From assembly GCA_029265355.1 (NCBI GenBank), contig JAJUJL010000004.1, positions 62,001 through 126,000 of the forward strand: a DNA stretch of 64,000 bases. The letters run 5' to 3'. A program made the translations under genes and the position numbers. Positions 13,755-40,581 of this stretch are shown piece after piece (the stretch's first letter is position 1; every line of letters starts with the position of its first letter). A model generated the notes under the pieces. It was not told the origin of the DNA and did no database searches. It worked only from the letters and a program-made list of their open reading frames with translations. The DNA is from Chloroflexota bacterium (GTDB lineage Bacteria > Chloroflexota > Anaerolineae > Anaerolineales > UBA4823).

Positions 13755-15272
13755 TCACTCTTCTCGCTCGCGCAAGTGTGGAAAAAGGATCACCTCGCGG
13801 ATATTGGCGCTGTCGGTAAATAGCATCACCAGGCGGTCAATGCCCATGCCAAAGCCACCATTGGGCGGCATACCGTAGCGCATGGCGCGCAGGTAATCTT
13901 CATCCATTGGGTGGCGCTCTTCATCGTCAGCAGCATAGGCGCGGCCCATCTCGATGAAGCGCGCTTCTTGATCCAAAGGATCGTTCAACTCGGTGAAAGC
14001 ATTGCACAGCTCGAAGCCCGCCATAAAGGCCTCGAAGCGCTCCACCAGGTGCGGGCTGCCAGGGATGCTCTTCGCCAGCGGGGTGATATCGCGCGGATAC
14101 TCGTAGATAAAAGTGGGCTGCAGAAGCGTCGGCTCCAGGAAATCGCCGACCAACGAATCGATCAGTTTGCCGCGCGGCGCCTTGGGATCCACCTGCAGGT
14201 TTAGCTGGCGCATCGCCTGCGCCAGGCTTTCTGCCGTCGGGTGGGCATCGATGTCAATGCCGGTTTTTTCCAACAAACCATCGCGCATGCGGAGGCGCCG
14301 CCAGGGCGGGTTGAGGTCAATCTCCTGCCCCTGGTAAGTCAGTATACGGCGTCCCAGCACCCGGTCAGCAACATACACCACCATTTCTTCGGTCAACGCC
14401 ATCACCTGTTCGTAATCAGCATAAGCCCAGTAAAACTCCAGCATGGTGAATTCCGGGTTGTGAGTGCGGTCCACACCCTCGTTGCGGAAGTCGCGTCCGA
14501 TCTCATACACCCGCTCGAGGTTGCCCACCAGCAAGCGCTTGAGGTACAGCTCGAAAGAGATGCGCAAGTACAGATCCTGCTTGAGCTGGTTGTGATGGGT
14601 GATGAAGGGACGCGCTGCCGCGCCGCCGTACAGGGGCTGCAATATCGGCGTCTCCACTTCCAGGAAACCGCGGCTGTCCAGGAAATCGCGCAGGGCGCGA
14701 GTGACCGCCGCGCGCGTCTGGAAGATCTGGCGCACTTCCGGGTTGACCGCCAGGTCGGCGTAACGCTGGCGATAGCGTGACTCAGGGTCGGTGAGCACCG
14801 CGTGACGCACCACCTGACCGTCCACCAACTCATCCTTGGCCGCTGGCAAGGGCGTGATCGCTTTCGAAAGCAAGCGGAACGACTCGACGCGCAGGGTGAC
14901 CTCACCGGTGCGCGTGCGAAACATCTCACCGGAGGCCTGCACGAAGTCACCCAGGTCATAATCGCGGGTGAAATGCGCCAACTGATCCTCTCCCAAATCG
15001 TTCTGGCGCAAGAAAAGCTGCACGCGGCCGTAGCCGTCTTCAATATGCGCGAAGGTGATCTTACCCATCGGGCGCATCGAGCGCAGCCGTCCCACCAGGG
15101 TTGCCCTGACCGGGTCGGCGCCGCCGGCAGCTTCGCTGCGCTCAAACGTCTGTATGGCTTCCAGGCTGGTGTGGGTGCGCTGGGCGCGGGTGGGGTAGGG
15201 TTCGATTCCCTCCCGACGCAATCGCTGCAGCTTCTCAAGACGAATTTTTTCCAGGTTAGTGTACTCAGTCAT
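13755..15272 (-). CDS. lysS: Lysine--tRNA ligase (class II)
   Basis: RNEGVDRTHNPEFTMLEFYWAYADYEQ, GFGMGIDRLVMLFTDSANIREVILFPHLR signatures. Confidence 0.97.
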   Translation of the reverse strand: MTEYTNLEKIRLEKLQRLRREGIEPYPTRAQRTHTSLEAIQTFERSEAAGGADPVRATLVGRLRSMRPMGKITFAHIEDGYGRVQLFLRQNDLGEDQLAHFTRDYDLGDFVQASGEMFRTRTGEVTLRVESFRLLSKAITPLPAAKDELVDGQVVRHAVLTDPESRYRQRYADLAVNPEVRQIFQTRAAVTRALRDFLDSRGFLEVETPILQPLYGGAAARPFITHHNQLKQDLYLRISFELYLKRLLVGNLERVYEIGRDFRNEGVDRTHNPEFTMLEFYWAYADYEQVMALTEEMVVYVADRVLGRRILTYQGQEIDLNPPWRRLRMRDGLLEKTGIDIDAHPTAESLAQAMRQLNLQVDPKAPRGKLIDSLVGDFLEPTLLQPTFIYEYPRDITPLAKSIPGSPHLVERFEAFMAGFELCNAFTELNDPLDQEARFIEMGRAYAADDEERHPMDEDYLRAMRYGMPPNGGFGMGIDRLVMLFTDSANIREVILFPHLREREE

Positions 15273-15307
15273 ATTGCCATTCCTTCGCCATTGTCCGATT
15301 AAGAAAA

Positions 15308-15340
15308 AGCCCCGCGCAGGGCGTGCTTGCGCGGGGCCCG
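15308..15340 (-). terminator. Rho-independent terminator after greA
   Basis: Minus strand GCCCCGCGCA...TGCGCGGGGC followed by TTTTTCTT. Confidence 0.75.
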
Positions 15341-15355
15341 GTGAGCAGCCCCAAT

Positions 15356-15817
15356 TTATTCGACCTTGATCACTTTGACGTGGAAAGAGCCGCCCGGAGC
15401 ATCTACTTTTACCGTATCTCCAGCGCGGTGATCCAGCAACGCGCGCCCCAAGGGCGATTCATTCGAAATACGACCATGGCGTGGGCTGGCTTCCGCCGGG
15501 CCAACGATCGTGTACACTTCCGGCTCGTTGTCGCCTTCCTGGATGGTCACCGTCGCGCCGACCTGGATGACATCCATATTGCCTGTTTCTACGATCACGC
15601 GAGCATTGGCAAGCAGAATCTCCAGCTCCTGGATGCGTCCTTCCACAAAAGCCTGTTCGTTCTTGGCGGCTTCATATTCTGCGTCTTCGATCAGCTCGCC
15701 GCCCTCCATCGCCTCGTGCAAGCGCGCAGCCACTTCCTGGCGCTTCACCGTGCGCAGGTATTCGAGCTCTTCTAGCAGCTTTTGATAGCCCTGTTGGGTC
15801 AAAAATGAAGGAGGCAT
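15356..15817 (-). CDS. greA: Transcription elongation factor GreA
   Basis: FLTQQGYQKLLEELEYLRTVKRQEVAARLHEAMEGGELIEDAEYEAAKNEQAFVEGRIQELE. Confidence 0.96.
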   Translation of the reverse strand: MPPSFLTQQGYQKLLEELEYLRTVKRQEVAARLHEAMEGGELIEDAEYEAAKNEQAFVEGRIQELEILLANARVIVETGNMDVIQVGATVTIQEGDNEPEVYTIVGPAEASPRHGRISNESPLGRALLDHRAGDTVKVDAPGGSFHVKVIKVE

Positions 15818-23169: not shown

Positions 23170-24060
23170 TTATTTCTTGCGTATCCCGCGCTGAGCGATG
23201 ATCAATTGATCTAAAATGTGAACCGGGAATAACCACGCCATGAGGGCGCCAATGCGTGCATCCCGCCCGACCAGGTAACGCCGTTTGGGTTTCGCCGCGC
23301 CCAAAGCGTGCGCCACCACTCGCGATACTTCTTCAACCGGCGTCCCCCCTGTTTTTGAGGCAGTGCGCTTCGCCAGCTTGTCCATGATCACACCATAATA
23401 CTGCTCCGCCGCTTGCGGTAATCGGCTGCGCAGTTCCTGCGCCGAGCGAATGGATTTGTCCCAAATCGGCGTGGCAATCCTGCCTGGCTCCACCACCGCC
23501 ACATGAATTCCCCAGGGCATCAATTCACGGTGCAAAGCATCGGCCATGGCATTCACGGCAAACTTGGAAGCCGAATACGGCCCCAGCATAGGCGTCGTCA
23601 CCCGACCGCTGATCGACCCGACGAACACCAGCCTGCCCCTGCCTTTGCGCAGCAACGGTAGGAAAGCCTGGGTGACTTGAAGCTGCCCGATCACGTTGAT
23701 TTCTATCTGGCGGCGGAATTCCGCCAGGGGGATGAATTCCAGCGGCGAAGCCACCGCGACGCCGGCATTGTTGACCAGACCCGCCAGTCCTGGCACGCCA
23801 GCTTGAGATTCGATTGACTTTTGCGCCTGGCGGACGCTCTCCTCATCGGTAACATCCAAAAACAACCATTGAAGCGCGCCCGAGGCGTCGCGTTGCAGCG
23901 CCTCGCCATCCTCCAACTTGCGAACCCCAGCAAACACCTGGTAGCCGAGCTCGCTCAGGTGCAAGGCGCAGGCGCGGCCAATTCCCGTCGAGGCGCCGGT
24001 GACCAGCACTGCGCCCGGTTTGCCATCCATAGATCGCTGCATCGCTCTTCCTATAGACAC
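23170..24060 (-). CDS. Short-chain dehydrogenase/reductase
   Basis: VLVTGASTGIGRACALHL, NNAGVAV, YSASKFAVNAM. Confidence 0.92.
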   Translation of the reverse strand: MSIGRAMQRSMDGKPGAVLVTGASTGIGRACALHLSELGYQVFAGVRKLEDGEALQRDASGALQWLFLDVTDEESVRQAQKSIESQAGVPGLAGLVNNAGVAVASPLEFIPLAEFRRQIEINVIGQLQVTQAFLPLLRKGRGRLVFVGSISGRVTTPMLGPYSASKFAVNAMADALHRELMPWGIHVAVVEPGRIATPIWDKSIRSAQELRSRLPQAAEQYYGVIMDKLAKRTASKTGGTPVEEVSRVVAHALGAAKPKRRYLVGRDARIGALMAWLFPVHILDQLIIAQRGIRKK

Positions 24061-25355: not shown

Positions 25356-27200
25356 CTAGACGTAGCGTTCTCGCAGTGTCGAGCTGATGTAATCCATAGT
25401 AGCGACCACGATCGCAATGGCCAGCATCTGGGCGCTGGCGGCGCGGTAGTTGAGCAGGTTGATATTCTGCTGGAGCAGGAAACCGATGCCGCCGCCGCCC
25501 ACAAATCCAATGATGGTGGACATGCGCACATTGATATCCCAACGATACATGGTGTAGGAGATATAGGGAGGTATGATTTGCGGGATGACAGCGTAAACGA
25601 TGGTTTGCAGGCGATTGGCGCCGGTCGCCTCGATTGCCTCCAGCGGTCCAGGCAAGATACTTTCCACCTGTTCAGAATATAATTTGGCTAAACTGACGAT
25701 AGTGTGCAAGCCCAAGGCCATCACCCCTGCGAAAGGACCAATGCCAACCGCAATCACAAAAACGATCGCCATCACCAGCGCCTCAATCGAGCGCAGCGTG
25801 TTCAGGATCGTACGCGTAACCGTATAAACCGCTAATCCAATGGGCAGGGAAGTCTTGGCCTCGGTGAATAGAGCCAGCAGCGCCCCAGCAGCAGCCCCAA
25901 CTAAAGACATCCCCCATCGAGTGATATCAGGCCTGTTAAGCTCGTACAACCATTCAATCGCCTGTCCAAGCAAAGCCAATACTACCGCGCCCGCAGTGGT
26001 GGCAAGCACCAGGTTCATCAATTTGACCTGTGATTTGGTAAGCTTTTCAGTGCCCCGCTGTCCCAAGCGGCTAAAAAAGCTGCTCACCGCGCCGCCAACC
26101 GCCAGCGAGCCGACGACAGGCGTAATCGTACGAATGATATCGCCCGACTGTACCATGAAGTTGCCCAGGAATTCGAAAGATCCGAGCCTGTCTCCGATCA
26201 GCGCTCCGAGGTTTACCATCAAGCTTGCCACCTGGTAAAGGCCAAAGAAACCGACAAGCGCGGCCAGAAATAAACTTGCCAATCGAGCAATCCGTAATGG
26301 GACGCCCGGCGTTTGCGTTTCCATTTCGGGCAGCGCCCAACGCGCAGCCAGCATGGCTGCAACCGGCGCTAACGCCCCACCCAGCAGATTCAGATAAATA
26401 TTTTCCGCCAACGGGGCGCTGAAAGCGCTAACCTGGTCCACCACGAAATAGCCTCCCACAATACCAACCGGCCATCCCAGGATAGATAAAGAAATGCTCC
26501 CCAATGGAGATTTAACCGACTTCATTAAGTTGCGGGCTGCGATGAAGCTGAGGGGAATTGCCAGTATGGTTCCCAGCGTGGTCGCCAGCAAAGCCAGGAA
26601 CACGGTTTCGACGATCTTCTCCCAGGTATCGCGAGCGGTATCGGTAAGCTGCGGCAGTCCCGTGTTGCGGCGCAGTGTGGCGCGCACGTACTGGGCTTGC
26701 GGACTCTGCCGGTCGGGGATCTTCAGCGTGGCGACAAAATGCCCCTCAGCATCCGTGGCAACGGTATCACTGCCCAAGGCAAGTTTGGTGGTTGGATCAT
26801 TACCGGGGATAAAACGCAGCGCGCCCTCTGCGTTGGGGTAGAAATTAAAACCTTCGACCTGAATTGTGTCGCCGGGATTGGCGCAGCCTGGAGAAAAAAC
26901 CAGGTAAGGAGCAGAGCGATCCTCAGGTGTGGGGGCTGGCACACTGCCGCCTTCCGGGCAGGGGACGTAAATGGGGGTATTGACAACCGATTCATCCTGT
27001 TTGTAGGTGAACAGGTCGGGTTGGAACAGAGCGCGAGTGACACGCACCAGGCTTTCCTGGCGTTGGGGGCTGCGCAGCTCATCCAGATTGACTTGGGTGA
27101 TCTCAAAACCGTACGCGTACACCACGAAAACCAGCAGGATGGTTGCACCAAGCCGTACAGATTTCCAGAGAGAGGTGTTTTTAGTCGTTGTTGATTTCAT
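25356..27200 (-). CDS. phnE: Phosphonate-type ABC transporter permease (PhnE-like) with Ig-like insertion and extra membrane segments
   Basis: PhnE-like halves (DTWEKIVETVFLALLATTLGTILAIPLSFIAARNL ... TRTILNTLRSIEALVMAIVFVIAVGIGPFAGVMALGLHTIVSLAKLYSEQVE...INVRMSTIIGFVGGGGIGFLL) separated by ~220 aa. Confidence 0.85.
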   Translation of the reverse strand: MKSTTTKNTSLWKSVRLGATILLVFVVYAYGFEITQVNLDELRSPQRQESLVRVTRALFQPDLFTYKQDESVVNTPIYVPCPEGGSVPAPTPEDRSAPYLVFSPGCANPGDTIQVEGFNFYPNAEGALRFIPGNDPTTKLALGSDTVATDAEGHFVATLKIPDRQSPQAQYVRATLRRNTGLPQLTDTARDTWEKIVETVFLALLATTLGTILAIPLSFIAARNLMKSVKSPLGSISLSILGWPVGIVGGYFVVDQVSAFSAPLAENIYLNLLGGALAPVAAMLAARWALPEMETQTPGVPLRIARLASLFLAALVGFFGLYQVASLMVNLGALIGDRLGSFEFLGNFMVQSGDIIRTITPVVGSLAVGGAVSSFFSRLGQRGTEKLTKSQVKLMNLVLATTAGAVVLALLGQAIEWLYELNRPDITRWGMSLVGAAAGALLALFTEAKTSLPIGLAVYTVTRTILNTLRSIEALVMAIVFVIAVGIGPFAGVMALGLHTIVSLAKLYSEQVESILPGPLEAIEATGANRLQTIVYAVIPQIIPPYISYTMYRWDINVRMSTIIGFVGGGGIGFLLQQNINLLNYRAASAQMLAIAIVVATMDYISSTLRERYV

Positions 27201-27949
27201 CCCACACGCTCAGCTTCTCGTCCATAAATATCTTTGAACTTCTCATCATCGATCTCGCTTGGCAGCCCCTCAAAAACCAGCCGGCCCTCGTTGAGCGCAA
27301 TCACCCGGTCAGCGTAGCGGTGCACCAGATCCAGGAAATGCAGGCTGCATAAGACAGTGACGCCGTCTTTCTTATTGATCTCCTCCAGGTGTTTCATGAT
27401 GCTGTGCGCCAACACTGGATCCAGGCTGGCGACCGGCTCATCCGCCAGGATCATCTCGGGATCCTGCATTAACGCCCGAGCGATGCCCACACGCTGCTGC
27501 TGTCCGCCGCTCAGCTCATCAGCGCGCATGTTCGCCTTATCAGCAATCCCCACCCGCGCCAGTTGGCGCATGGCATTCTTCACGTCCTGGTCGGGAAAAC
27601 GGTTCAGCAGGCTCCAGGCCGGGTTGATATACCCCAGGCGGCCAGCCAGCACATTGGTAATCACCTTCGAGCGGTGCACCAGGTTGAAGTGCTGGAAAAC
27701 CATACCGATCCTACGCCGGATGCGGCGCATTTCATCTGGAGAAGCAGCCGTGATATCTACACCATTCCAGATGATCTGCCCGGCAGTGGGCTCGATCAAC
27801 CGGTTGATACAGCGCAACAAGGTAGACTTGCCGGAACCGCTCAGCCCAATTACCGCGAGAAATTGCCCGCTGGGTACCGTAAAGCTGATGTCGGTCAGCG
27901 CTTGCACACCGCCATCATAGACCTTGGTCAGATTCTTTACCTCTAGCAT
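27197..27949 (-). CDS. phnC: Phosphonate ABC transporter ATP-binding protein
   Basis: Walker A GLSGSGKSTLLRCI, signature LSGGQQQRVGIARAL, Walker B MILADEP; adjacent to phnE-like gene. Confidence 0.9.
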   Translation of the reverse strand: MLEVKNLTKVYDGGVQALTDISFTVPSGQFLAVIGLSGSGKSTLLRCINRLIEPTAGQIIWNGVDITAASPDEMRRIRRRIGMVFQHFNLVHRSKVITNVLAGRLGYINPAWSLLNRFPDQDVKNAMRQLARVGIADKANMRADELSGGQQQRVGIARALMQDPEMILADEPVASLDPVLAHSIMKHLEEINKKDGVTVLCSLHFLDLVHRYADRVIALNEGRLVFEGLPSEIDDEKFKDIYGREAERVG

Positions 27950-28065: not shown

Positions 28066-30474
28066 CTACTTCAAAGTCTCGAGGGTGATGCCGGACTCGG
28101 CAACCATCAAGCGAATGAAATCGTATTCGGCGTCGGTGGCTGGCACCAGGCCAGACCAGCCGTAGAAGTCCTCGCTGCCCAAGGATTGAGCCCAGCCTTC
28201 GGACTCAGCAAACGCTGCCAGTGCATCCGAGATCTGCGCTCGCACTTCAGCGGGGAACTCAGGGCTGAAGGACAGCGTGTCATTGGGGATATCCGGGGAC
28301 AGGGTCAGGATGCGCACTTTCGCAACCACATCCGGGAACTCTTCGCGGATGTTGGCGCGTGCATCCAGGATCCGGTAACCTTCGCACAGGAGCTGCGATT
28401 TATCTTCGTTCAGCGCGCAGCTATTGACGTCCACAGGAACTTCGGGATCCATGCCCGGCTGCCAGGGCTCAGCGCCCTCGGGCGCGGCCCACGGGCTGTA
28501 GAAAGCGGTGGCAAAGTCGGCTTCACCGGTGTACACCGCGCGCACAGCCTGCGGGTGACCGCCAGCTTCGAGCGTCTCACCGGGCGTTACCCCAGCTTCC
28601 TTCAGCATCACGGTCGGGACCAGGTATCCGGAGGTAGAGCCAGCATCTGGGTAAGCCCACTTTTTGCCTTCGAGATCCTCGATGCTCTGGATGTCGCTGT
28701 CACGGGCCACCACGATCATGGTCCAGTACACACCCCAGCCGCGGCGTTCCGCCTTGAAGGCCACGTCCACGCCGCATAACTGGTTGGCGAGCACATACCC
28801 AAAGGCCGGAATGAAAGCCATGGTGTTCGTTGGCGATGCACACATCTCTTCAATGGTGGCGGCGTAAGAAGTCGGTACGGAGACTTCGAACTCCAGACCA
28901 GTGGCTTCTTTCAATGCAGCAGCCATCACCTCGCCACCAGTCACGATCACATTTGCGTCCACCGATGGGACGAACAACACCTTGATCGGGTTGTCCACCG
29001 TGCCAATCGGCACAGGGGTAGCAGTCGGTTCAGGTGTGGGGGTGGGCGGCAGCGGCGTCGGCAGTGGGGAAGTCAGTGATTCTGCCAGAATGGCGTTGGC
29101 CTCTTCATCCAGAGCGCCCAAGGTGGAAGCAACATCAGCGCCATCGGCAATCGCAGCCATGGCTTCGCCAACCTTGACGCGCACTGGGTCGTAGTTGGGC
29201 ACGGGCGGCTCGAAACGACCGTATTTCAACAGATCGAAGGCGGTCTTATACGCCGGGTTCGCCGCGAAGTATTCGGTGAGACCCTCGGCAACGCTGGCGC
29301 GCACCGGGAAATACTGGCTGGCCTGAGCCCACTTGGCCTGTACTTCAGAGCTGGTATAGTATTTGACAAACAACCAGGAAGCCAGCTCATTTTCCGGAGT
29401 GGTCTTGGGCAGGCTAACGCTGGCGCCGTAGATGTTCATCACCGGGTCAGGCGTTGTGTGTGGGATGGCTGCCACGCTCCAGGCATGCTTGGAGCCGGCG
29501 TCCACTGCCTGCTGGTAGAAAGGCAAGCCCGAGCTGGATCCGACCGTGAACAACGTTGTGCCTGCGCCAAAGTTGGTCTGATCGCCGAAGTTCTCGGTCA
29601 CCACGCGAGCGCAACCGCTGTTGAACAGGTCCTGGAGGAATTCCATGGCTGCGACTGCAGCGTCGCTGGTATAGGTGTACTTGCTGTTGTTGTAGTCAAA
29701 GATATCGCCGCCAAAAGCGAACGTCCAGGAAGCAAAGCGAGAGGCGTCGACGCTGAGCTCATAGCCCATGCTGCCTTCGCCGGTTGCTTTAGAGAAAGGC
29801 TGCTCGACGGCTTTGCAGGCCATTTCCTTGAACTGCTCGGGGGTCTCAGGCGGACCGTCGTAGCCCAATTCCTTGAGCCAGTCGATATTGTAGTACAGCA
29901 CTTCCATCGAACGGTTGGGAGCGATACCCAGGCGAGCGCCATCGTAGATGGAGAAAACATCCTGGGCCAGGAAGCTCTGGAAGAAGTCAGCCTTGTCTGC
30001 CTCGCTGAGGCCCCACTTCGGGCTGTCAAACAGGGTATTGAGATCCACCAGACCCTCACCTAGCTGGTAAGTGGCCATCTGGTTCTGGTAGGCAACCACA
30101 ACACCCGGGGCGTCCGGGGTGTTGAGCACGCCCAGCATTTTATTGAAGATATCGGCATAGCTGCCCTGATATTCAGCCACAACCGTGATTCCCCATTCGT
30201 TGGTGGCGTTGAACTCGTCCACGATCTCCTGAAGCGCGGCTTCGCGAGAGCGAGTGTGCTGATGCCAAAAAACAACTGTCTGGCCGCTGGGATCAACATC
30301 TGCCCAAATATCTTCGGGCTCGGCCGGCGCTGGCGGCTCAGTGGCCTGCGCGGCTGGCGGCTCAGTGGCTTCTGCCGTCGGCGCCGGGGTGGGCGCTGGT
30401 TGGCAGGCTGCCAGTACAAAACTGGCAACCATCAAGACGGCCAACAGCTTGAAGAACATATTATTCTTTTTCAT
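28066..30474 (-). CDS. Fused ABC substrate-binding lipoprotein: UgpB-like (family 1) domain + PhnD-like domain
   Basis: Start trimmed to MKKNNMFFKLLAVLMVASFVLAACQ (lipobox). N-domain: VVFWHQHTRSREAALQEIVDEFNATNEWGITV...; Pro/Thr linker LPTPLPPTPTPEPTATPVP; C-domain: PIKVLFVPSVDANVIVTGGEVMAAALKEATGLEFEVSVPTSYAATIEEMCASPTNTMAFIPAFGYVLA. Confidence 0.9.
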   Translation of the reverse strand: MKKNNMFFKLLAVLMVASFVLAACQPAPTPAPTAEATEPPAAQATEPPAPAEPEDIWADVDPSGQTVVFWHQHTRSREAALQEIVDEFNATNEWGITVVAEYQGSYADIFNKMLGVLNTPDAPGVVVAYQNQMATYQLGEGLVDLNTLFDSPKWGLSEADKADFFQSFLAQDVFSIYDGARLGIAPNRSMEVLYYNIDWLKELGYDGPPETPEQFKEMACKAVEQPFSKATGEGSMGYELSVDASRFASWTFAFGGDIFDYNNSKYTYTSDAAVAAMEFLQDLFNSGCARVVTENFGDQTNFGAGTTLFTVGSSSGLPFYQQAVDAGSKHAWSVAAIPHTTPDPVMNIYGASVSLPKTTPENELASWLFVKYYTSSEVQAKWAQASQYFPVRASVAEGLTEYFAANPAYKTAFDLLKYGRFEPPVPNYDPVRVKVGEAMAAIADGADVASTLGALDEEANAILAESLTSPLPTPLPPTPTPEPTATPVPIGTVDNPIKVLFVPSVDANVIVTGGEVMAAALKEATGLEFEVSVPTSYAATIEEMCASPTNTMAFIPAFGYVLANQLCGVDVAFKAERRGWGVYWTMIVVARDSDIQSIEDLEGKKWAYPDAGSTSGYLVPTVMLKEAGVTPGETLEAGGHPQAVRAVYTGEADFATAFYSPWAAPEGAEPWQPGMDPEVPVDVNSCALNEDKSQLLCEGYRILDARANIREEFPDVVAKVRILTLSPDIPNDTLSFSPEFPAEVRAQISDALAAFAESEGWAQSLGSEDFYGWSGLVPATDAEYDFIRLMVAESGITLETLK

Positions 30475-30596: not shown

Positions 30597-31487
30597 CTAG
30601 CCTTTCAATCCCGTAGTGGCAATACCCTCGGTGAATTGTTTCTGGGTGAGAAAATATAGCACCAGCACCGGAATTAAAGTTATCACCGCCCCAGCCATCA
30701 GAAGGTGCGTCTCGGGGCCTGCTTCGGAAACAAAAGTCCATAATCCAACCATCAGCGGGCGCCAGGTCTCTTTGGTGGTCACCAAGAGCGGCCAAAGAAA
30801 AGCATTCCAGGAACCGATAAATGCAAACAAGGTCACCGTAGCAATTGGCGCCCTGCTGATCGGCAATACGATCGTCCACAGAAAACGCAGGTGACCTGCG
30901 CCATCAATGCGCGCTGCATCCCACAGCTCATCGGGAATTTTGGCAAAGAACTGGCGCAACAAGAATATGCTGAAAGCATTCGCCATAAAGGGTACCGTCA
31001 ACGCTTGCAGCGAGTTGAGCCACGAGCCCCCCGGCAAGGGCAGGATACTGCCGCGAATCATCAGGAAATTGGGTATCATGGTCACCGATTCGGGGATCAT
31101 CATCGTGCTGAGCAAGATACCGAAAATGAAATCCCGGCCGAAGAACCTGATGCGAGCAAAAGCATAGCCCGCCAACACCGAGGTTGTCACCAGGCCAATA
31201 ATGGTCGTCACGGTGACAATCACGCTGTTGAAAAAGTAGCGCGAAAAACGCGCCTCGCTCCACGCGACCTGGTAGTTGACGAATTGGGGTATTTCGGGCA
31301 ACCAGCGGCGCTGGATTGTCTCACCCAGGGTCATCAATGAAGTGGAAACCATCCAATAAAAAGGCAAAATTGCCAACACCGCGCCCAGGATCAAGACCAG
31401 GTACATCACCAATCGTTCTGGTCGCAAGCGCACCCTGGAGGCGGAAGCTGGGATCACAGATTGGTCTGCCTTCATCGCATCAGCCAT
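30597..31487 (-). CDS. Carbohydrate-type ABC transporter permease (MalG/UgpE-like)
   Basis: PFYWMVSTSLMTLGE; IDGAGHLRFLWTIVLPISRAPIATVTLFAFIGSWNAFLWPL (EAA-like loop). Confidence 0.9.
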   Translation of the reverse strand: MADAMKADQSVIPASASRVRLRPERLVMYLVLILGAVLAILPFYWMVSTSLMTLGETIQRRWLPEIPQFVNYQVAWSEARFSRYFFNSVIVTVTTIIGLVTTSVLAGYAFARIRFFGRDFIFGILLSTMMIPESVTMIPNFLMIRGSILPLPGGSWLNSLQALTVPFMANAFSIFLLRQFFAKIPDELWDAARIDGAGHLRFLWTIVLPISRAPIATVTLFAFIGSWNAFLWPLLVTTKETWRPLMVGLWTFVSEAGPETHLLMAGAVITLIPVLVLYFLTQKQFTEGIATTGLKG

Positions 31488-32691
31488 AAAACACCTTCTC
31501 TCCAAAGACCTTGTTCTGTACGATGGTCAAGATGAGAATGATGACAAACAAAATGATCGCTTGAGCCGTTGCATAACCAAACTGGTTGTAGCGGTAGAAA
31601 GTATCGAAGATAAACACGCTGGCGACATCTACCGTTCCTTGAGCCGAAGGCACACGCATGACATAGATATGATTAAAGGCTTTGAACGTACCGATGAACG
31701 CCACCAGCGCCAGGTAGAAAGTGACCGGCGAGAGCAGCGGCAGGGTAATGTACCGGAAGAGGTGCCAGGTGCTGGCGCCATCGATTTGCGCAGCTTCATA
31801 TAACTCATGCGGGATTGAACCGAGGCCGGCCAGGAAAATGACGGTGTTATAACCAACATAGGTCCAGATGCCAAATAGCACGATCGTCGCCAGCGCCATG
31901 CTTGGTCCAGCCCAGAAACCTTCCAGCCAATCCAGGCCAAACATCACCTGGTTGAACGGTTTCGACTCGAATAACCATTTTTGCGGCTCCTGCCCCAGCG
32001 CGGTCAGAAATTGATTTGCCAGGGAAGTTTCACGCGGGCTGAAGATCGTGCGAAAAACCACTGCCGTAGCCACCACGGGCGTGATGTAAGGCAGGAAGTA
32101 CAGCATACGGAAGAATTCTTGCCCCTTGATCTTTTGGAAGAGGATATACGCCAGCACCAAAGCCAGTCCCAACTCGGCTGGGACAGTGCCCAGCGCATAG
32201 TATAGGGTCAGAGGCAGCGAGACCAAAAAATCCACATCGCCAGTCTCCAGCATCTGCTGCCAGCCCACTGGCGCGACAAAGAATGCTCCGATCAGCAGCA
32301 TGGCGGCGCCAATCTTGAGCGCCAGCCCAAGATTGCTATGAGAGCGCAGCGCGCTATCCCATAGCAAATAAGCCAGGAAAAGCATGGCAATGCCGAGGAC
32401 AAAGATGATAACACCCGACCAGTCCCCCAGCGCTTTATGGTAATTTTCCACCCCAACGAAAGGTCCCTGGCGCACGCGCCAGTTGTAAAGGCTCATGTAG
32501 AAAGCATAACCAATTGGGAATATGCCAAATATTGATATGATGAATACAGCAGGGAAGATAAATGCGTAACCGGTAAGCTGCTCTTTCACATCCAGCCAGC
32601 GTATGCGCTTTCGCGGGGTTGCAACTTGAGAGATCGTCGTTGAAGCCAAGTTGTGCTCCTTTTTTGACATCATTCTGAGGGAGCGCAGCAA
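31480..32691 (-). CDS. Carbohydrate-type ABC transporter permease (MalF/UgpA-like)
   Basis: YEAAQIDGASTWHLFRYITLPLLSPVTFYLALVAFIGTFKAF; GYAFIFPAVFIISIFGIFPIGYAFYMSLYNW. Confidence 0.9.
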   Translation of the reverse strand: MLRSLRMMSKKEHNLASTTISQVATPRKRIRWLDVKEQLTGYAFIFPAVFIISIFGIFPIGYAFYMSLYNWRVRQGPFVGVENYHKALGDWSGVIIFVLGIAMLFLAYLLWDSALRSHSNLGLALKIGAAMLLIGAFFVAPVGWQQMLETGDVDFLVSLPLTLYYALGTVPAELGLALVLAYILFQKIKGQEFFRMLYFLPYITPVVATAVVFRTIFSPRETSLANQFLTALGQEPQKWLFESKPFNQVMFGLDWLEGFWAGPSMALATIVLFGIWTYVGYNTVIFLAGLGSIPHELYEAAQIDGASTWHLFRYITLPLLSPVTFYLALVAFIGTFKAFNHIYVMRVPSAQGTVDVASVFIFDTFYRYNQFGYATAQAIILFVIILILTIVQNKVFGEKVFYG

Positions 32692-33051: not shown

Positions 33052-34542
33052 GTGTTCAGCTTTCGCCCGCTAAATTTACTCTACCGAAGGCTGCTGCGCA
33101 TGCTTGTGTGGCTGGCAGGTGTTTCACTGCTGTTGGCTGCCTGCCAACCCAATCCTTCACCGGAATATCCCTCGGCAGAGCAGACCTCCACCCCTGCTGC
33201 GGCGTTTGCCAACACCCCCACCATCCGTCCACCAGCGCCGCGCCTCACGCATACGCCTCCCCCTGTCCGCCTTATCACCGTGGAGCCCGAAGAATTGCAG
33301 GCGCTCCGCCTGTCATTGTGGCATCCGTGGTCCGCGGCTGCAGCCGCTGAGCTGGAGACATTGGTGAGCGACTTCAATCGCACCAATACCTGGGGAATCC
33401 GGGTAGAGACGCATCCAATCGAGGATTTTGATGAGCTCTCCAATCGGCTACAAACCACTGGCGGAGGAGATGAGCGACCAGATATCTTGATTGCGCCGCT
33501 GTATCAACTGCTTTACCTGGACCAGGATCGATCCCGGCTGGCTGATCTGGATGGTTATATTCAGGATTCCACCTGGGGATTAACCGCAACAGAGCAGGAT
33601 GATTTCTTTCCGGTGTTCTGGCAAAGCGGCTTTCAAGGAGCAGCGCGCCTGGCCGTTCCTGCTTTCAGCAGCGGTAGTGTGCTTTACTATAACAAAACCT
33701 GGGCTAACGAATTAGGGTTTGCTGACCCGCCAGGCAGCGCGGCTCAATTTGTGGAGCAGGCATGCGCCGCTGCTCGCGCCAACCAGTCGGATGAGGATGG
33801 CGAGAATGACGGCACCGGCGGCTGGATCATCAATACCTCTTACCCAGCAGCGATCTCGTGGCTGTACGCCTATAGCGCCAACATTCAGGATGGCGAGGTC
33901 GGCTACCGCTTCAACACCACACCTGTTCGGCAGTCGCTGGCCTTCCTGCGTAGCCTCTATGAGCAGGGGTGTGCCTGGCTTCCGGAAGATGAATATGTGG
34001 AGGATGAATTTGCCTCCCGGCGCGGCCTGTTTGCTTCTGGAACTGTGCTCGGCATCCCCTTTCAAGAAGACGCTTTTGCCGATGCTCGCAGCCAGGACGA
34101 GTGGATGGTGCTGCCTTACCCTGGGCCGTCTGGCCCGGGCGCTGTCACGGTGTACGGTGAATCATTCGCCATCATCGCCGCTACACCACCGCGCCAACTG
34201 GCAAGCTGGCTGTTCATTCGCTGGATGCTTCAGCCCGAAAATCAGGCGCGATTGATCCTCAAAACCGGAGCTTTACCGTTGGGCGGCGCAGCGCTGGAAG
34301 AAATACAGCTCCACAAGCCACTCAAGCAATGGCAGCAAGCTGTGGATTTGCTTGATCTCGCCTATGCCGAGCCGGCGCTGGCTTCCTGGCGCACCGTCCG
34401 CTGGGCGGTCAGTGACATCACCACCCAATTGTTCCGCTGGTATTTCACGCTGGACCAGCTTCCCGCCTCGATACACCTGCTGGACCAGACCGCGGCCGAA
34501 CTGCACCAGCGCTTTGGCGAAAAACCGCAAATGAACCCATGA
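33052..34542 (+). CDS. Extracellular solute-binding lipoprotein, paralogous to the UgpB-like domain at 29.1-30.4 kb
   Basis: Lipobox [44 protein letters not shown] aligns by eye with the fused SBP N-domain. GTG start. Confidence 0.8.
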
Positions 34543-38687: not shown

Positions 38688-39003
38688 TGCGACTCTCCAC
38701 TCTAAGGGCCTCCGGTAGGCTCACCAATCAGGCACGATCACGTCACAGGATACGCAACCAATGCGTAATTATTTTATCTGAAATCACCATTTTTTTATAG
38801 GCTATCTCAGCGCCCAGTCTGCTGCCTGCTGATTGCAACCAATGGGCCAGACAGGTAAGTCATTCTTTGCCCCGCCTCAATTTCCGGAAAACAGATAACA
38901 GCAGTTTCCACAGCCTGAGCTTTATGCCCGAATTATTAAGAATTGGTTATGATTTGCAGCTTTGTGCACAACTTTTCAAGTTGAATCCTTACATGAACTC
39001 AAG

Positions 39004-40581
39004 ATGAGAAGAATTAACCCTGTTCAATCGTTGCCTGGCTTGATTGCCACCTTCTTATTACTAACCGGACTGGGCATGATGCTCTGGTTGCGCGGAGGCG
39101 AGGCGTTCAGCCCCGGTTCCTTGACTGCTATTAGCCATTCCGGTTTGCAAGCTGGTGGATTCCGCTCGCACGCCGAATTCGAGCCGGAATGCAGCAAATG
39201 CCACCAACCTCTGAAAACCACCCAAGTTGAGTTGTGCCTGGACTGCCATGTGGAAGTCGCCGCTCAATTGGATAAACAAAATGGAACCCATGCACACATC
39301 CAGGATGCAAACCGTTGTGCAACGTGTCACTCCGATCACCAAGGGCGCGATTTCGACCCCACACGCCAGGCCTTTAATCATTTCGATCACACACTCACCC
39401 ATTTCAGCCTGCTGTGGCACCAGGTGAATTACGACGCCAGCCCGATGGATTGCACTGCCTGTCACACCATGGAACCGGTCTTTGCCGTATCGATTGCAGA
39501 GTGTTTGGATTGTCACTCTGCCAGGGATGAAGCATTTGTTCAACAACACATCCAGGATTTCGGAGATGATTGCCTGCAATGCCATGATGGCAAAGATCAA
39601 ATGATTAACTTCGACCATCAAGCAACCGACTTCAAGCTCGAGGGACAACACGCTGCTGCACGGTGTGGATCGTGCCACTCCAATGAAGCGCGCGCCAGGC
39701 AGCAAGCCCGCCAGCCAGGCCGGGCCGGGTTCGCTTTATTAACTCGTGAAGAGAGAGATGAGCCCACCACATTACTGGCACAGTTCTGGGATACACCAAT
39801 AGCTTGCGGAAGCTGCCACACCGAGCCTGAGATGCACCTGGGCATGTTCTCTGAGGATTGCGCCACCTGCCACAACGCGCAAAGCTGGTCCCCTGCCATA
39901 CTCGACGGGAAGCAATTCGAGCATGCGAAACACACCGGCTTCAGCCTGCAGCAACACCTGTTCGATGCAAACGAGCAACCGATCCGCTGTAACGATTGTC
40001 ACCAGAGTGATCTAAAGGCGTTTGATGTTCAAACCTGCATCACCTGCCATTCGCTCGATGACGCCAGCGCCAGCTTCATGCAACAGCACACCGCTGAAGT
40101 GGGCTTATCCTGTAAGCAATGCCATGACGGCGTAGATCGCATGGAATACTTTGACCATAATAGCGTGTTCCCATTGCAAGGCCGCCATGCGGGTGTTGCT
40201 TGCCTGGCTTGTCACACAGATTACAACTTTATCGAAACAACCGCCGCCTGTGTTCAATGCCATGCGGAACCCGCCATTCATGCTGGCTCGTTTGGGCTGC
40301 AGTGCCAGTACTGCCACACCGATCAAGCCTGGCAGCCAGCTCAACTGCGCCAGCACCGTTTTCCATTGGATCACGGCGGGCAAGGTGAGATAAAGTGCCA
40401 GACCTGCCACACGCAGCGCTACGATGAAATCACCTGTTATGGGTGCCATGAACACCAGCCTGAGCCAATTCAGGCCAGCCACCTGGCCGCGGGTGTGTCT
40501 TTGGAAGACTTGCCCCGCTGTGCAGCGTGTCACCCGGACGGTTTGCAAGGAGAGCAAACCAAAATCGGTGCAGGAGAATAA
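39004..40581 (+). CDS. Multiheme c-type cytochrome, 18 CXXCH motifs
   Basis: Counted 18 CXXCH by eye (CSKCH ... CAACH); N-terminal hydrophobic anchor. Confidence 0.9.
   Translation: MRRINPVQSLPGLIATFLLLTGLGMMLWLRGGEAFSPGSLTAISHSGLQAGGFRSHAEFEPECSKCHQPLKTTQVELCLDCHVEVAAQLDKQNGTHAHIQDANRCATCHSDHQGRDFDPTRQAFNHFDHTLTHFSLLWHQVNYDASPMDCTACHTMEPVFAVSIAECLDCHSARDEAFVQQHIQDFGDDCLQCHDGKDQMINFDHQATDFKLEGQHAAARCGSCHSNEARARQQARQPGRAGFALLTREERDEPTTLLAQFWDTPIACGSCHTEPEMHLGMFSEDCATCHNAQSWSPAILDGKQFEHAKHTGFSLQQHLFDANEQPIRCNDCHQSDLKAFDVQTCITCHSLDDASASFMQQHTAEVGLSCKQCHDGVDRMEYFDHNSVFPLQGRHAGVACLACHTDYNFIETTAACVQCHAEPAIHAGSFGLQCQYCHTDQAWQPAQLRQHRFPLDHGGQGEIKCQTCHTQRYDEITCYGCHEHQPEPIQASHLAAGVSLEDLPRCAACHPDGLQGEQTKIGAGE

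Follow-up and report, generated by a model that had tools for sequence, protein, structure and literature searches.

ABC importers are normally described as working with one receptor, or several, per channel. The closest described counterparts of the protein reported here are GlnPQ and OpuA of Gram-positive bacteria, in which tandem or paired substrate-binding domains (SBDs), more than one per polypeptide or complex, are flexibly tethered at the membrane (PMC8025302, PMC11065425). Two families of free-standing receptors are also relevant. In UgpB, a Tyr/Ser/Ser/Tyr set coordinates the phosphate of the ligand (PMC12718374), and in the PhnT family, which includes PhnD, PtxB and HtxB, the phosphite binders carry a tyrosine cap over the ligand (PMC5700983). 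In picocyanobacteria, PhnDCE systems occur without known phosphonate catabolism, and phosphate uptake or phospholipid recycling has been proposed as their role (PMC10284923).

Like GlnPQ and OpuA, the receptor described here holds more than one substrate-binding domain in a single polypeptide. Unlike them, where the SBDs are tied to a transmembrane domain and supply a single channel, it joins two receptor families, is free of any permease domain (Pfam and AlphaFold2 model), and lies beside the genes of two importers. Tandem SBDs tied to one transporter are already known, and what is apparently new is the fusion of receptors belonging to two importer families; no account of such a protein was found in a literature search that lay mostly outside the subscription journals.

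The window, a stretch of 64,000 nucleotides from a Chloroflexota bacterium, contains a frame of 802 codons open on the minus strand (30474..28066), the plus strand being interrupted by stops, and its ATG is preceded by a good Shine-Dalgarno sequence, GAGGAG. A preliminary description of this DNA had placed two substrate-binding proteins of different families in one polypeptide at 28066-30474, giving no strand, and the open frame, Pfam, NCBIfam and AlphaFold2 all agree with it. The product, P0001 (802 aa), begins with a signal peptide read from the translation (residues 1-24, 30403..30474, minus strand) whose lipobox LAAC ends in the lipidated Cys24. It is followed by a UgpB/CUT1-type receptor domain (residues 58-471, 29062..30303, minus), a Pro/Thr-rich linker (residues 472-490, 29005..29061, minus) and a PhnD-type receptor domain (residues 491-802, 28069..29004, minus) which, as had been proposed, possesses no signal peptide of its own. 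Pfam places SBP_bac_8 (E 6e-30) on residues 83-411 and Phosphonate-bd (E 7e-43) on residues 501-784, and NCBIfam assigns UgpB and PhnD/3A0109s03R, the score of the first half against the UgpB equivalog (56 bits) being below the cutoff of 411. The nearest PDB entries are the 7c0f series, 4mfi and 6x84 for the first domain, by sequence and by fold, and HtxB and PtxB for the second. Both halves adopt the type-II periplasmic-binding-protein fold, and they have no significant mutual sequence similarity; their assignment to one and the same family is rejected by Pfam, by NCBIfam and by the half-versus-half comparison.

The AlphaFold2 model contains two folded domains, with blocks mostly at 76-98 in the first and 63-94 in the second. 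The linker, which the preliminary description had put at about 29005-29075, is disordered (pLDDT about 36 for residues 472-487). Beyond the anchor region, the only other long disordered stretch (658-703) is an insertion of ~45 residues in the PhnD half (about 659-703). Two flexible linkers, of about 33 and 19 residues, are present in the protein, in which one lipid anchor holds two complete and apparently functional receptors.

The pockets of both halves can be compared with those of characterized receptors. The PhnD half shares with PhnD, PtxB and HtxB the head-group Tyr, Tyr, Ser-Thr-Ser and His, and retains the E. coli PhnD residues Y47, Y93, S127, T128, S129, H157 and D205; an Asp is aligned with E. 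coli E177 in a column which adjoins the insertion and is therefore less certain. An alignment of 18 Chloroflexota domains, both fused and solo, shows no change at these pocket residues. The cap position is occupied by Asp732, as in E. coli PhnD, and the tyrosine of the phosphite binders (PtxB/PhnD1) is absent. This half differs from PhnD, PtxB and HtxB in that absence, in its missing signal peptide, in its insertion and in the failure to find a C-P lyase in the genome. PhnJ was found in none of the 11 genomes with PhnD fusions, the E. coli control being detected; PhnW and PhnX were above their cutoffs in 0/11, which are weaker tests since no control passed the cutoff either. In view of these results, "phosphonate" is not a safe label for the ligand, and with neither a C-P lyase nor a Tyr cap found, phosphonate or phosphite as the ligand is unsupported. 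The idea that PhnD would be the only phosphate importer is rejected as well, PstC being present in all 11 genomes tested. The situation resembles that of picocyanobacterial PhnD1, where PhnDCE also occurs without known phosphonate catabolism, PhnD1, unlike the present protein, not being joined to a second receptor (PMC10284923).

The UgpB half resembles the UgpB/CUT1 receptors of E. coli (4aq4/6x84) and M. tuberculosis (4mfi/6r1b) and the 7c0f series in fold, with 20-28% identity, and in the Tyr/Ser/Ser/Tyr phosphate set, which it retains together with an Arg (Y106, S189, S314, Y388, R432). It departs from UgpB by being fused, by the absence of ugpC from its operon and by the loss of the two-Trp clamp found in glycerol-3-phosphate-binding UgpB, Tyr238 and Ser241 standing in place of E. 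coli W169 and W172. The nearest solved structures are those of a dinucleotide-binding protein (7c0f series), followed by UgpB. The residues mutated in the 7c0f series, as named in the PDB titles (Y56, F79, N81, S127, Y224, T240, Y246, Q274), correspond to Y, Y, N, S, F, S, F and Y, mostly identical or similar, in a mapping read by eye from the alignment. With the clamp missing and a dinucleotide bound by the nearest structure, glycerol-3-phosphate is a doubtful ligand. We take both halves to be receptors for phosphorus-containing compounds, and our guess for the UgpB half is a phosphodiester such as a glycerophosphodiester or a short nucleotide.

Genes for both types of permease flank the fusion on the same strand, as the preliminary description had noted and as NCBIfam confirms. 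Upstream lie those for a UgpA-type permease (31480..32691, minus, start codon uncertain; NF007852, E 6e-22) and a UgpE-type permease (30597..31505, minus; NF008210, E 8e-43). Downstream, the cognate PhnC ATPase (27197..27949, minus; TIGR02315, E 1e-100) and PhnE permease (25356..27200, minus; TIGR01097, 243 bits), both above cutoff, are followed by a type I phosphodiesterase/nucleotide pyrophosphatase family enzyme (PF01663; 24051..25337, minus), in which no signal peptide was seen, and by an SDR oxidoreductase assigned by Pfam (23170..24060, minus), the last gene of the run. The PF01663 enzyme has no PDB match at 0.01, and its gene also adjoins loci containing only UgpAEB or only PhnDCE. A UgpC-type ATPase is absent from the operon; several UgpC-like ATPases are encoded in the same genome, the best being 50% identical to E. 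coli UgpC.

Divergently from this run, a second UgpB-like lipoprotein, SBPup (33052..34542, plus; 28% identical), stands as an orphan and is conserved in the family next to phnD loci, whether these are fused or not. Both tyrosines and one serine of the phosphate set are changed in its pocket (Phe, Ala, Val), so that a different ligand or a role as a sensor is probable. Other particularities of the neighbourhood are a beta-rich, extracytoplasmic insert in PhnE, which follows the first transmembrane helix and measures ~125 residues (about residues 62-186; model confidence low, 60 overall and about 60-85 in the insert) and is also present in unfused relatives, and the length of UgpA, about 100 residues more than in E. 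coli, with extra hydrophobic segments near the N-terminus. Further away, a multihaem cytochrome c (38962-40578, plus; Cytochrome_C7/CIII matches) lies beside a two-component system which received no PhoBR assignment above cutoff.

The model we propose, and which we consider probable, is that of a bispecific lipoprotein receptor in which two independently folding receptors supply two importers for phosphorus-containing nutrients. The UgpB-type domain would bind a phosphate-ester ligand and pass it to UgpA/UgpE, which would probably rely on a MalK/UgpC-type ATPase from another locus of the genome. A small phosphorus oxyanion or an organophosphorus compound would be bound by the PhnD-type domain and passed to PhnE/PhnC, the flexible linkers allowing each domain access to its own permease. 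The outcome would be a fixed 1:1 stoichiometry of the receptors, with both phosphorus-scavenging importers brought together at the membrane. The fusion, the conserved pocket residues in both halves, the presence of both permease sets and the recurrence are observed; the ligands, the pairing of each half with its permease in delivery and a possible benefit of coupling are what we infer. The UgpC-like ATPases of the genome and the PF01663 gene in the operon also favour the model. For the benefit of tethering it is the recurrence, by itself, that speaks: the repeated joining of such modules to other receptors in related bacteria suggests an advantage in connecting two uptake systems. A functional link would show that entire uptake systems are open to coordination through a covalent bond between their receptors.

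This recurrence is extensive. UgpB::PhnD fusions with ugpA-ugpE before and phnC-phnE after were found in three other genomes of the same family (G022, G002, G023), and the linkers of the four genomes start with the common motif (T/D)SPLPTPxPT. By searching the class with the PhnD half, and relatives with the whole protein, we found further architectures, which bring the PhnD-module fusions, the four UgpB::PhnD genomes included, to 20 genomes: BMP::PhnD (G008, G020, G056, G089, G361, G327), BMP::BMP::PhnD (G336, G078), SBP_bac_3::PhnD (G027), MalE-like::PhnD (G045, truncated where its contig starts), PhnD::BMP (G142, G074, G117, G086, G247) and PhnD::PhnD::UgpB (G203). Contig ends truncate some of the frames (L066, L106, L112), and there are ambiguous bases in L100. 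We take the BMP/PnrA partner to be a nucleoside-type receptor and the SBP_bac_3 partner to be an amino-acid receptor. In several BMP fusions, BMP-type permeases and a double ATPase adjoin PhnC-PhnE, and in the case of SBP_bac_3::PhnD a GlnP-type permease lies upstream; as a point against the model, the local stretch holds no BMP permease at two loci (L052, L055), one being encoded elsewhere in the genomes. Together with the two permease sets and the intact pockets in the window, these matching permeases support the earlier suggestion of one receptor serving, or linking, two channels, the coupling itself being our reading of the arrangement. Extended to the class, this reading, in which UgpB, BMP and amino-acid-type lipoprotein receptors were repeatedly fused to PhnD so that two importers would share one tethered receptor and take up their substrates in a physically linked manner, is offered tentatively, at somewhat less than even chances. 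A limited test outside the class, one phylum sample queried with BMP::PhnD, returned no fusion, and no plasmid record covered most of the fusion. At the BMP::BMP::PhnD locus L101, an inosine-uridine nucleoside hydrolase (14770-15756) follows the fusion and the double ATPase, in support of a nucleoside ligand for BMP at this locus.

The main rival explanation, which we hold to be rather unlikely, is that adjacent lipoprotein genes of an operon were joined through their Pro/Thr-rich linkers, the halves working as before and without any gain. The raw material for such an event exists: unfused PhnD lipoproteins of the same clade possess a similar Pro/Thr/Glu-rich stretch behind the lipobox, so that an in-frame fusion of two such genes could arise by one deletion, and unfused neighbours are present (L114, L050). 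The mixing of fused and solo PhnD in the tree also favours it, the UgpB-fused halves being scattered among solo and otherwise fused domains. That the PhnD halves of the fusions do not group together speaks, on the other hand, for the bispecific receptor: a single clade of the PhnD halves of the window, G022 and G002 is rejected (AU p 1.5e-47), as is a PhnD clade uniting every fusion of the set (p 4e-54), whereas the UgpB halves of the four genomes are compatible with one clade (p 0.31). All these p values are indicative, since the tree searches were quick and the groups were chosen with the data in view. A single origin of all the fusions is thus rejected on the PhnD side and not on the UgpB side, which, as far as such trees can tell, points to repeated joining or exchange of the modules: either different PhnD-C-E lineages received a UgpB cassette together with its linker, or the PhnD part was replaced at a later stage. 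PhnD, PhnC and PhnE of the window are 87, 88 and 64% identical to those of an unfused locus (L026), versus about 74, 80 and 53% for the fused G022. The PhnD half itself may be a mosaic: its informative sites, which are few, are mostly of the family type to about 617 and of the L026 type from 663. Against a fusion without gain stand its recurrence with several unrelated receptor families and in both orders, the persistence of fused forms at about 60-75% identity between genomes with pockets intact, and the existence of tandem BMP::BMP and UgpB::UgpB receptors, the latter in G010, G001 and L018. For gauging the effect of tethering on transport, the related fusions offer natural linkers, domain orders and unfused controls.

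The bispecific receptor has a second competitor, which we regard as improbable, in the view that one half is an accessory or a sensor, the PhnD module sensing or concentrating phosphorus compounds on behalf of the transporter of its partner, or the partner doing so for PhnE. The PhnD-first fusions (PhnD::BMP and PhnD::PhnD::UgpB) favour it, as they have no local PhnCE, PhnE being encoded elsewhere in the genomes, and their PhnD domain may serve another purpose. Two frames in relatives, interpreted by eye, also suggest sensor-like use. A 1601-aa frame of G158 (L104:3239-8041) has a PhnD domain at its end, with ATPase, TPR-like, transmembrane and WD40-like parts upstream, and is possibly a sensor of phosphorus compounds; in G009, a UgpB-type domain stands behind a Ser/Thr protein kinase-like part and a transmembrane segment in an 835-aa frame (L063:60-2564), which may be a receptor kinase whose sensor is of the CUT1 type. 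In the window, however, both permease sets flank the gene, with PhnC and PhnE directly after it, and its closest PhnD relatives are plain receptors accompanied by PhnCE. Finally, an assembly artefact or frame error joining two genes, conceivable in a 64-contig assembly, is refuted by three other assemblies with the same fusion, the same gene order and an intact linker in each.

Tandem UgpB::UgpB receptors were also encountered at L048, L018 and L049, and the copy at L048 ends in a Pro/Thr tail resembling the linker of the PhnD fusions.
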